DNA of 64,000 nucleotides, from contig REBZ01000093.1 of the NCBI GenBank assembly GCA_007692495.1, positions 1-64,000 on the forward strand. Direction: 5' to 3'. The notes beneath the pieces are model-generated. The model worked only from the letters and a program-made list of their open reading frames with translations, was not told the DNA's origin and did no database searches. Below, piece after piece: positions 53,060 to 56,668 of this stretch. The DNA comes from Alkalicoccus sp. (lineage in GTDB: Bacteria; Bacillota; Bacilli; Bacillales; Salisediminibacteriaceae). A program made the position numbers and the translations under genes. Every line of letters starts with the position of its first letter. Position 1 is the stretch's first letter.

Positions 53060-55297
53060 TCAACTGCCTTCCTTATCATGGAAAAAAGACAGGGTCTCCA
53101 ATACTCCCTCTTTTACTTTCATCGTTACAGTGCCGTGGAGATTCGTTTGATATACTGTAATTCCATTCGATTCCAGCCGTTCCACCACCTCTTCATGGGG
53201 ATGGCCGAAGCGGTTATCCACCCCCGCCTGAATCACAGCTGTGTCCGGAGCCGAGGCGTTCAGAAATGTTTCAGTTGAAGAGGTTCTGCTTCCATGATGT
53301 GCCACTTTCAGCACGTCGGTCTTTAAAAGCTCCGGATGCTTTCCGAGTTCCTTTTCTGCCGCCTCTTCTATGTCTCCCGTAAATAAAAAAGTGACTTCTT
53401 CCAGCTCTGCTTTTAAAACGATAGACCGGTCATTTTCACTCCAGTTTTCACTATTGGTCGGATGAAGAATGTGGAATCGGCTGTTTCCTGTTTCCCACCT
53501 TTCGCCTCTGCCGGCAAAATACAGTGGTATGTCATTCTCCTCGAGACAGGCGAAAGCTTCCGTTACAATTTCCGGTACCGTTTCGGAAACCGGATAAATA
53601 ACCTGACCAATGGAAATCCTGCTGCTCAGATAGCATATTTCACCCATATGATCAGCGTGTCCGTGGGAAATAATCAAAGCATCTATTTTATCGATCCCCC
53701 TTCCTCTCAAAAACGGCAGAACAACCTGCTTTCCCGGCCCGTTGCGGGATAACTCCATTCCTTCTTCTGTGTACTTCACGAGTCCGCCTGTATCAATCAT
53801 ATATACTGCTTCTCTCCCCGGCAGTTCAATTACAGAAGCATCCCCCTGACCAACATCAAGAAAGTGAATGTAGGCATGTTTATCCAAAACAGGAAGCAGC
53901 GTGGGTACGAGAAGCATGAGAGCTGATAAAAGAGCAGCCGCAGCCCATTTTTTTCTTTTGTCCCAGATGATAAATCCTATCAATATAAAAGTGTACCAGA
54001 TGATAATAAATACAGGCAGTGGTTTTCCGGATGTAATCAGGTGGCCCGGGAAAAATTCCAACATATCCAGCCACTGATGAAGAATATACATACACGTTTC
54101 CACCCGGGAAAAAACCCACTCTGCTCCCCACGGAAAACCAGGCTCAATAAAAACGCCGGCAAACGAAAGCGGCAGAACAATAAACGAAATAACTGGAATA
54201 AACAGGGCATTGGCAGCAAACGTCATAAGTGATATGGAATAAAAATAATAAATGATAAGAGGCAGCGATACGAGCTGGGCTGCAAATGTTACTTTCATCA
54301 TTAATGAAAAACCGTGTCCCTTCAAAATCCCCGTAGATAAAATCAACCCTGCCGAAGTAACAAAAGAAAGCTGAAAGCCTATATGGTAAATAACAGAAGG
54401 CTGCATTAATACGTATAAAATACCTGTCACACTATATATTTCAAGAAGAGGTATCTTCTTTTTACTTAAGAGAAAAATCAGGGCGAGCATTGTCATGGTA
54501 CCTGCCCTTATTACTGATGGTGCCGCGCCTGCATAAACAATGTACAGAGGCATGAGTAAAAAAAGAATGACAGCTGCCGTCTCCCTCGTTATCCCGATTC
54601 TCACCAGCAAAAGCCAGACCCCTGCCGTAATAAGGCCTACGTGCAGCCCGGAAACTGCAAGAAGGTGAATGACACCAAGCAGCTGATATTGATTGATTCT
54701 TTCCTCTTCTATAAAACTCCGCTCTCCAAAAACAAGGGCTGCTGCAAGTGCACCTCCCGGACCCATCCCCCCTACACGGTGAAGCTGCTCAAAACGTCTG
54801 TCGAAAAATTCTGTCCTTAAGCTCCTTTCTCCCGGACACTCCACTTTATCGGCAAAAATCTGCCAGGATATATTTTGCCTCAGCAGATAATTTTTATAAT
54901 CAAACTGGAAAGGACTTCTTGCTTCCTCCGGTTTAATAAGCGTTCCATAGACAAGGCACTTATCCCCTGCGCCGGGGCGTTCAGCAGTATAGACAGTAAT
55001 CTGGTCCTGTTCTTCTGTTCGGAGGGTGAAACGGTACCCTTCCCCGGACACCTCTGAACTGCCGGCTGTTCCTTCCACGTATTCTTCTTCTCCCGAGAGA
55101 TCACTTGAAGATTCATCAAAGGAGGGAGCGAAAAATACTCCCACCAGAAACGCTGCACCCACCGCTGCTTTCCGGGGGACCCGTAAAAAAACAGCCAGAG
55201 CGGCCGCTGCTGCACCGATTCTCCATTCTATATTCGTTCCGGAGGCAGCAGCCATCCCGCAGAGCAGAGAAATGAAAATATAAAAAAACGGATACAC
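53060..55297 (-). CDS. comEC: DNA uptake channel ComEC
   Basis: The 745-residue polytopic membrane protein forms the transformation DNA channel. An N-terminal OB-like domain (about 60-165) is followed by the Competence domain with many membrane helices (about 210-465; VIHLLAVSGLHVGLI near 207) and a C-terminal metallo-beta-lactamase-like domain with HFLDVGQGDASVI and ISHGHADHMGE near 530, probably a nuclease. The start is GTG after AGGAG; both are enclosed in a 15-bp hairpin (55288-55343). It is last in comEA-comEB-comEC. Confidence 0.96.
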   Translation of the reverse strand: MYPFFYIFISLLCGMAAASGTNIEWRIGAAAAALAVFLRVPRKAAVGAAFLVGVFFAPSFDESSSDLSGEEEYVEGTAGSSEVSGEGYRFTLRTEEQDQITVYTAERPGAGDKCLVYGTLIKPEEARSPFQFDYKNYLLRQNISWQIFADKVECPGERSLRTEFFDRRFEQLHRVGGMGPGGALAAALVFGERSFIEEERINQYQLLGVIHLLAVSGLHVGLITAGVWLLLVRIGITRETAAVILFLLMPLYIVYAGAAPSVIRAGTMTMLALIFLLSKKKIPLLEIYSVTGILYVLMQPSVIYHIGFQLSFVTSAGLILSTGILKGHGFSLMMKVTFAAQLVSLPLIIYYFYSISLMTFAANALFIPVISFIVLPLSFAGVFIEPGFPWGAEWVFSRVETCMYILHQWLDMLEFFPGHLITSGKPLPVFIIIWYTFILIGFIIWDKRKKWAAAALLSALMLLVPTLLPVLDKHAYIHFLDVGQGDASVIELPGREAVYMIDTGGLVKYTEEGMELSRNGPGKQVVLPFLRGRGIDKIDALIISHGHADHMGEICYLSSRISIGQVIYPVSETVPEIVTEAFACLEENDIPLYFAGRGERWETGNSRFHILHPTNSENWSENDRSIVLKAELEEVTFLFTGDIEEAAEKELGKHPELLKTDVLKVAHHGSRTSSTETFLNASAPDTAVIQAGVDNRFGHPHEEVVERLESNGITVYQTNLHGTVTMKVKEGVLETLSFFHDKEGS

Positions 55298-55343
55298 GGC
55301 GCTGCTCCTCTCCTGTTAAAAAAGCACTGCGCCGTATATCCGT
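55288..55343 (-). promoter_or_regulatory. Hairpin enclosing the comEC start
   Basis: On the minus strand the arm 55343-55329 can pair along all 15 bases (one G-U) with 55302-55288. The loop contains TTTTTT and the ribosome binding site GGAGAGGAG; the start codon GTG is in the 3' arm. Such a structure should hide the start codon. No coding need explains the pairing, because the 5' arm is untranslated. Confidence 0.65.
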
Positions 55344-55374
55344 TCCGCGAAAATGTCTTTTGAATTCTGCTTAT

Positions 55375-55944
55375 TTACATCGGTTGTGTAAAAAGTGAAT
55401 TCGCTTTGTTTCTCATGTCCTGCAATTCCGCTTCCGAAAGCCCTTTTTCTTCGAGTTTTCCGAGCAGTTCTGCTGTAAAGGCGAGTTTTTCTTTGTTTTT
55501 TGTATCAAGTATCATTTCTTCCAGTTCCACCTGAGCTACTTCAACACCTGCTTCTTCAAATAAGTTTTCAGCAAACGGATGATTTTTATAGTCCGCTGCA
55601 TAATACATTCTCTTAATTCCTGCCTGAATAATCGCTTTACAGCAGTTGAGGCAGGGAAAATGCGTAACGTAAATTTCTGCTCCTTCCGATGCTACACCAA
55701 ACTTTGCACATTGGATTATCGCATTAATTTCTGCATGGATCGTCCTTACACAATGATTATCAACAACATAGCATCCATCCTCCGAGCAGTGGCTGCCCCC
55801 GGAGATCGAGCCGTTATACCCTCCGGCAATAATCCGTTTCTCTCTTACTATCGTCGCCCCGACCATCAGTCTTGTACACGTGCTTCTTAATGCAAGCAGA
55901 TGACTCTGAGCCATAAAATACTGATTCCAGGAAATGCGTTCCAT
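55375..55944 (-). CDS. comEB: dCMP deaminase ComEB
   Basis: The 189-residue zinc enzyme deaminates dCMP to dUMP, feeding thymidylate synthesis. The zinc site has His70-Ala-Glu72 and Cys98/Cys101 in FPCLNC; GYNGSISGG near 42 is the nucleotide-binding loop. A C-terminal extension (about 145-189) is helical and charged. Although it lies in the comE operon, ComEB is not needed for DNA uptake in B. subtilis. ATG follows AAGGGGGAG. Confidence 0.94.
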   Translation of the reverse strand: MERISWNQYFMAQSHLLALRSTCTRLMVGATIVREKRIIAGGYNGSISGGSHCSEDGCYVVDNHCVRTIHAEINAIIQCAKFGVASEGAEIYVTHFPCLNCCKAIIQAGIKRMYYAADYKNHPFAENLFEEAGVEVAQVELEEMILDTKNKEKLAFTAELLGKLEEKGLSEAELQDMRNKANSLFTQPM

Positions 55945-56056
55945 ATCGTTCTCCCCCTTATGATGTCTTTCATCAGTTTAGGGAAAAATATATCCTTTCG
56001 TCAACTTATTGTTTCTGAAGTTTTTGACAAGGAAGAAACAATAAGACGCAAACGGT

Positions 56057-56668
56057 TTAGTAAGGCGCCAGATGCTCCCTCAACGTCTCGAGTGTTTTCT
56101 CCCCGATTCCGGGTACGTTAATTAAATCATCCACCTGCTGGAACGGACCGGACTCCTCCCTGTAGCTGATAATTGCTTCAGCTTTTGCCGGACCTATTCC
56201 CGGAAGCGTTTCCCACTCCGCCTGTTCCGCCAGGTTCATGTTCAGTCTGGTATCGTCTGTCCCGACCGGCTCCCCGCCTTCCACATGCTCTTCAGAAGTA
56301 CTGACCGCCGGAACGTTTATCACCATTTCATCAAATGCACGCTGAGCAAGATTCACTCCTGCTATATCCGCTTCCTCTGTGAGACCCCCCGCCTCCTCTA
56401 TAACCTGTTCCACACGCTGGCCCTCCTGCATTTTATATACTCCGGGATGTACCACCTCTCCTTTGATATCCACTTTTATATCCCCCTGCTCCGTTAAGAC
56501 CGCTTCGTCCTCCTGAGGCCCTTCTGCCGCTGTTTCAGTGAGAGGGCTGTCTGCTTCGGAATGATGCAGCGTATAAAAAATTATCAGAAGCAGTCCTGCA
56601 GCGCCTCCTGCAACTTTTATCAGCAGACTCCGGTCTACTCTTTTCAGCCAGAATTTCAAATTCTCCAT
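56057..56668 (-). CDS. comEA: Competence DNA receptor ComEA
   Basis: The 203-residue protein has a single N-terminal transmembrane helix (about 17-35), an acidic linker, an SLBB-like domain (about 68-120, KVDIKGEVVHPGVYKMQEGQ) and a C-terminal double helix-hairpin-helix (about 140-203, LNMNLAEQAEWETLPGIGPAKAEAI), which binds double-stranded DNA at the membrane surface and hands it to ComEC. The divergent comER that adjoins comEA in B. subtilis is missing; 56669-56751 holds no gene. Confidence 0.95.
   Translation of the reverse strand: MENLKFWLKRVDRSLLIKVAGGAAGLLLIIFYTLHHSEADSPLTETAAEGPQEDEAVLTEQGDIKVDIKGEVVHPGVYKMQEGQRVEQVIEEAGGLTEEADIAGVNLAQRAFDEMVINVPAVSTSEEHVEGGEPVGTDDTRLNMNLAEQAEWETLPGIGPAKAEAIISYREESGPFQQVDDLINVPGIGEKTLETLREHLAPY

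Follow-up and report, generated by a model that had tools for sequence, protein, structure and literature searches.

What does it mean for a DNA-uptake channel that the start codon of its gene lies within one arm of a long predicted RNA hairpin? This question is raised by comEC in a 64,000-nucleotide stretch of Alkalicoccus sp. DNA (hereafter the window), in which comEA (56057..56668, first in the comE cluster), comEB (55375..55944, 189 aa), and comEC (53060..55297, 745 aa) follow one another on the minus strand. The comEC product, the uptake channel, matches ComEC/Rec2 (TIGR00361) with 346.5 bits, and its upstream neighbour, a dCMP-deaminase family gene, matches ComEB (TIGR02571) with 273.3 bits; the closest comEC in a named record, among those found, belongs to Alkalicoccus saliphilus (86% identity). 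The assignment of the comEC start to the GTG at 55297-55295 looks sound, since this is the sole candidate in the open frame ahead of the profile match, its Shine-Dalgarno duplex energy is -12.7 kcal/mol, and MYxFF-type ComEC N-termini were found repeatedly in relatives.

With respect to the hairpin itself, the original prediction described 15 pairs with one internal G-U between 55343-55329 and 55302-55288, and these are present letter for letter. The helix extends by three further pairs, an A-U followed by two G-U pairs at the base, to give 18 uninterrupted pairs between 55346-55329 and 55302-55285 (minus strand). Its 5′ arm (GGAACGGATATACGGCGC, 55329..55346), located past the comEB stop codon (55377-55375), is untranslated and non-coding, and covaries with its pairing partner. 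The 3′ arm (55285..55302) is coding sequence that takes in the comEC GTG and codons 2-4 and reaches one base into codon 5. Between the arms, an apical helix and loop (55303..55326) contain the Shine-Dalgarno. Specifically, TGCTTTTTT (55326-55318) pairs with AGAGGAGCA (55311-55303) over 9 bp to enclose a loop at 55317-55312, and the Shine-Dalgarno AGGAGAGGAG (55314-55305) contributes only three bases to this loop, with the remainder held in the apical helix. The ribosome binding site is thus more fully covered than in the original prediction, which had placed it simply in the loop. The 3′ arm runs directly into TTTTTTT (55282..55288), which spans the two Phe codons 4 and 5 and ends on the first base of codon 6, and the first four bases of this U tract also pair, at the base of the stem. 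Together, the comEC hairpin and U tract take the form of an intrinsic terminator with a protein-coding downstream half.

Folding of the intergenic RNA recovered the same hairpin. A 91-nt region was predicted to fold at -38.7 kcal/mol, as compared to -16.8 ± 3.0 kcal/mol for 200 dinucleotide shuffles (z -7.4, with none of the 200 as stable), and the 63-nt hairpin by itself gave -38.3 kcal/mol (z -10.1). When only the spacer was shuffled, with the Shine-Dalgarno and codons held fixed, none of 1000 shuffles in the window was as stable (z -7.6). The stem also survives in the predicted fold when flanked by 150 nt from comEB and 60 nt from comEC.

In terms of other gene starts, we compared comEC with a set of 323 drawn from the window and 400 kb of G003, which comprised genes of at least 120 aa with a usable Shine-Dalgarno as identified by a home-made caller. 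Six of these starts lie in a hairpin of -10 kcal/mol or better that is followed by a U tract, and comEC (-38.1 kcal/mol) is the only strong case among them, the next reaching -14.1 kcal/mol. Plain folding energy from -75 to +18 is also lowest for comEC (-41.1 kcal/mol), yet five others of the 323 reach -30. Second lowest by this measure (-35.9 kcal/mol) is a TTG start at about 34085 on the minus strand, which is without a U-tract hairpin. A terminator-like site on the lepA side (49035-49009) folds at -18.4 kcal/mol for 41 nt, and the comEC hairpin, at -38 kcal/mol, is much stronger. Codon bias within the U tract was considered as a sign of selection and was rejected, as TTT already accounts for 79% of the Phe codons in genus comEC genes outside the start; a tract that encodes Phe-Phe therefore needs no selection for termination.

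The hairpin architecture is present in nine genomes, namely all eight genus genomes examined and one genome of a neighbouring genus in the same family (G013), and these carriers share the position of the hairpin while differing in its letters. The best start-spanning hairpin with a U tract was predicted at -38.1 kcal/mol in G000, -37.5 in G007, -34.6 in G006, -34.4 in G001, -24.1 in G003, -22.1 in G005, -21.3 in G002, -20.7 in G013, and -18.8 in G004. All nine have, at some register, at least five T in the eight positions after the stem, the tract overlapping the stem base. The stem begins 10-33 nt past the first base of the comEB stop codon and varies in length: it is continuous for 17-18 pairs in the three closest genomes and short or interrupted in G004, G002, and G013. 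In spacer-only shuffling, the native stability was equalled or exceeded by 9/1000 shuffles in G005, 9/1000 in G002, and 102/1000 in G004, and the G004 fold is unremarkable when shortened to end at codon 4 (236/500 shuffles). In the predicted folds, the start codon pairs with upstream sequence with a probability of 1.00 in six of the nine genomes and of 0.60-0.66 in the other three (G003, G005, and G004). In a tree built from comEB and partial comEC of 36 genomes, the nine carriers group together as a single clade (support 98/95), a distribution consistent with a single origin and retention in 9/9 members over long branches.

Outside this clade the picture is different. Our scan for start hairpins with upstream sequence covered 57 of 60 genomes (the nine clade members and 48 others); the remaining three were G043, in which no start was found, and G050 and G051, for which the available stretch gave no comEC match. 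An initial scan, which began at the comEB stop codon, had covered 36 non-clade junctions. No hairpin of -18 kcal/mol or better was found at the tested comEC starts of the 48 non-clade genomes, and the hairpin was consequently rejected as a general feature of comEC. Weaker hairpins were seen at a likely start in G010 (-14.0 kcal/mol), a doubtful start in G041 (-16.0), internal starts in G042 (-16.9, a weak start) and G027 (-14.8), and, mostly at internal or doubtful starts, in G012 (-12.5), G044 (-12.4), and G035 (-10.5). The automatically chosen order-level starts are doubtful in several cases (e.g., G036, G038, G040, G041, and G055). In G046 and G011 the start codon pairs with upstream sequence without forming such a hairpin. 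A family-wide terminator after comEB was likewise rejected, as only two of 23 spacers from non-clade members of the family are distinguishable from shuffles (defined as at most 2/40 shuffles as good), and three of 23 reach -10 kcal/mol. Relatives that keep the gene order and lack the pairing, which the original prediction had counted against itself, do exist outside the clade, and there are none within it. Being absent at comparable strength from the 48 genomes outside the clade and kept by all nine members inside, the pairing is a clade-specific feature rather than a general property of comEC.

Within the clade, compensatory changes of the kind that the original prediction had pointed to were found both by permuting the arms and by covariation analysis. 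Pairing every genome's left spacer with every genome's right arm revealed the native combination to be the best of 5040 permutations over seven lineages, and the best of 720 over six, as compared to 51/720 for a control test at the comEB start. In an alignment of eight genomes, 92.6% of cells are paired and 6 of the 18 pairs show two-sided changes; the last base of codon 3, for example, varies among G, A, and T, with C, T, and A as the respective partners. The covariation score of 0.379 exceeds that of shuffled alignments (0.202 ± 0.030) and of slid registers (at most 0.117). Considering the 11 basal pairs alone, covariation is 0.276 versus 0.136 ± 0.026 for shuffles, with an ordinary count of further pair types (90/500 shuffles as high). 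The ends of this alignment were trimmed at the stem base, which leans it toward structure, and G004 is still gapped in the upper stem; the permutation test is independent of the trimmed alignment. Individual arms do not always prefer their own partner, in that the left arm of G005 pairs better with the right arm of G000, and the right arm of G004 pairs better with the left arm of G002. With identical arms, the three closest genomes contribute no covariation. Overall, these comparisons indicate that base pairing has most likely been kept by selection in one clade, made up of the genus together with G013 from a neighbouring genus.

The comE cluster also contains a candidate promoter between comEA and comEB (TTGACG-N18-TAAACT, 55975..56004, minus strand). 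The pattern TTGACN-N17/18-TANACT occurs upstream of comEB at 37 of the 55 order-wide junctions (24/32 within the family and 13/23 outside it), a count that is descriptive because the pattern was derived by inspecting these same junctions. Its background is one occurrence per 800 kb of G003 on both strands, which renders a chance origin unlikely. In a few junctions the motif is far from comEB (e.g., L084, 819 nt). Six of the eight genus genomes carry it; G006 has a variant recognized by eye (TTGACG-N17-TACAAT), and G005 gave no clear match. This conservation suggests that comEB has its own promoter. The motif is sub-consensus and sigma-A-like, and its shared deviations, a G ending the -35 box and a C in the -10 box, are odd.

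Building from the structure, position, conservation, covariation, clade distribution, and promoter motif established computationally above, we consider it moderately probable that comEB is a nested unit whose terminator doubles as the comEC start and lowers comEC twice; termination, repression, promoter activity, and purpose are what we infer. Polymerases leaving comEB would tend to stop within comEC codons 4-6, and in mRNAs that read through, the comEC Shine-Dalgarno and start codon would be locked in the same stem, hindering translation. The terminator at the end of comEB would thereby shield comEC from comEB transcription, such that comEB could be expressed alone from its own promoter without making the uptake channel, and comEC would be made at a low leak or once something opens the hairpin. 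B. subtilis polymerases have been reported to outpace ribosomes (PMC13323073), and, with a stem that begins so shortly after the comEB stop codon, the hairpin and U tract could act before any ribosome arrives. Use of comEB alone is likely in that it is an enzyme of nucleotide metabolism with its own conserved promoter motif. ComEB is described as a dCMP deaminase in B. subtilis (in a study cited in PMC10564135), and its function is plausibly wanted outside competence. In Listeria monocytogenes, comEC expression is reported to change without comEA and comEB (PMC4627465); this indicates that comEC can be uncoupled from the two elsewhere, and nothing more. The accessible part of the same report makes no mention of a comEC terminator.

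If this proposal is correct, the channel is probably scarce or made under some conditions only, and the channel step would be gated in cis by an RNA lock, apart from the regulators thought to switch competence. The "comE operon" would in fact comprise two units that overlap, comEB being driven by a separate promoter. Moreover, weakening the left arm should raise ComEC and leave the protein unaltered, because this arm is non-coding. A narrower version appears to us possible, though rather doubtful. In it, comEB would be expressed vegetatively from the order-wide promoter as a unit nested within the competence operon, and its terminator, fused in the Alkalicoccus clade with the comEC start, would form one RNA element that shuts off the channel in transcription as well as translation until a signal specific to competence relieves it by antitermination or unfolding. 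Competence control of the comE cluster is itself assumed here, because a simple-pattern search upstream of comEA found nothing consistent in the way of ComK boxes and comK was found in seven of the eight genus genomes, with no ComK match in G001, a genome given as 99% complete.

Several other explanations of the conserved stem deserve consideration. The element might act by translational occlusion alone, with the U tract merely coding for Phe-Phe and causing little termination, and with a helicase, sRNA, or protein as the opener, in the manner of the sxy stem of Haemophilus. The start codon fully paired with upstream sequence in six of nine genomes, the covered Shine-Dalgarno in the window, and the use of TTT, the usual Phe codon, all fit this reading; it accords less well with the partial pairing of the start in G003, G005, and G004, and with a stem adjoining a U tract in all nine genomes, and we judge it unlikely on balance. 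Less likely still is a regulated attenuator or switch in which a ligand, an antiterminator protein, an sRNA, or temperature flips the hairpin between closed and open. Here the position and form of the hairpin are suitable, and double restraint by a terminator and a Shine-Dalgarno hairpin is known for B. subtilis vmlR (PMC9226507). Nonetheless, no conserved competing structure emerged in the wider context, where the stem was retained, and an Rfam search of 1,101 bases gave no match up to E 1. Inspection by eye for a leader peptide over the left arm found no consistent form. Temperature as the trigger is disfavoured by predicted melting: the probability that the start is unpaired is at most 0.04 at 65 °C in six of nine genomes, and in the other three it is 0.34-0.36 at 20 °C and only 0.39-0.55 at 65 °C. 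The RNA thermometer raised in the original prediction is thus not supported by these predictions; of its broader expectation of low or conditional translation, the computed occlusion of the start codon stands. Its suggestion that the hairpin may act as an attenuator after comEB finds computational support in the hairpin adjoining a U tract in 9/9 clade genomes and in the compensatory changes.

The stem could alternatively be an mRNA processing or stability element, serving as an RNase III site or protecting the comEB 3′ end. The 17-18 continuous pairs of the three closest genomes would suit such a role, which is harder to reconcile with the short or interrupted stems of G004, G002, and G013 and leaves unexplained why the stem keeps a fixed register relative to the U tract and start; we regard it as quite improbable. 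A coincidence, or a recent inverted duplication without function, appears slightly more improbable again. The weak stability in G004 and the identical arms of the three closest genomes, which add no covariation, would be compatible with it, and the same fold built from different letters in seven lineages, the first rank of the native arms among 5040 pairings, and retention in 9/9 clade members over long branches argue that, as judged by sequence comparison, this possibility is largely refuted.

Relative to known systems, the comEC hairpin resembles an ordinary intrinsic (Rho-independent) terminator between operon genes in that a stable stem leads directly into a U tract, and differs in that its 3′ arm and U tract belong to a coding sequence and contain the start codon of the next gene. 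Judging from the accessible parts of the respective reports, three further systems are informative. In Haemophilus influenzae, an mRNA stem lowers translation of sxy, with compensatory mutations having confirmed the pairing (PMC3739930); sxy likewise belongs to the genes of natural competence. However, sxy encodes a regulator rather than the channel and has no terminator, whereas the predicted comEC hairpin is intra-operon, leads into a U tract, and is conserved with covariation. The B. subtilis vmlR leader combines the SL-3 terminator, the SL-4 Shine-Dalgarno hairpin, a uORF, and an antiterminator (PMC9226507), and thus also places two layers, termination and Shine-Dalgarno sequestration, upon one gene. 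It does so with two stem-loops in a 5′ leader, as opposed to the single, partly coding hairpin predicted at comEC, for which no antiterminator was found. Finally, Legionella RocR/RocC control competence mRNAs via the 5′ untranslated region (PMC7973641), so that DNA-uptake genes are again subject to RNA pairing in that region; the agents are a trans-acting sRNA and a chaperone, unlike the cis pairing at comEC. The literature searched, which was mostly without subscription papers and in part accessible, contained no report of RNA structure at the comEC start; the related matches concerned another gene's folded 5′ UTR in Micrococcus and, in another paper, cold shock. A terminator and a start-occluding hairpin combined in one element at the channel gene would appear to be a new form of an established type of element.

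Three minor observations were made around comEB. An 11-bp inverted repeat (TTATTGTTTCT / AGAAACAATAA, about 56005-56042, minus strand) lies immediately next to the -35 box of the promoter motif upstream of comEB and is incomplete in the two closest relatives of the window genome. The comEB Shine-Dalgarno is itself predicted to be paired (TTTTTCCC with GGGGGAGAA, about 55945-55990, minus strand) in the window and in these two relatives. At L144 (G008, same family), approximately 8 kb with five ORFs of more than 340 aa lie between comEB and comEC.
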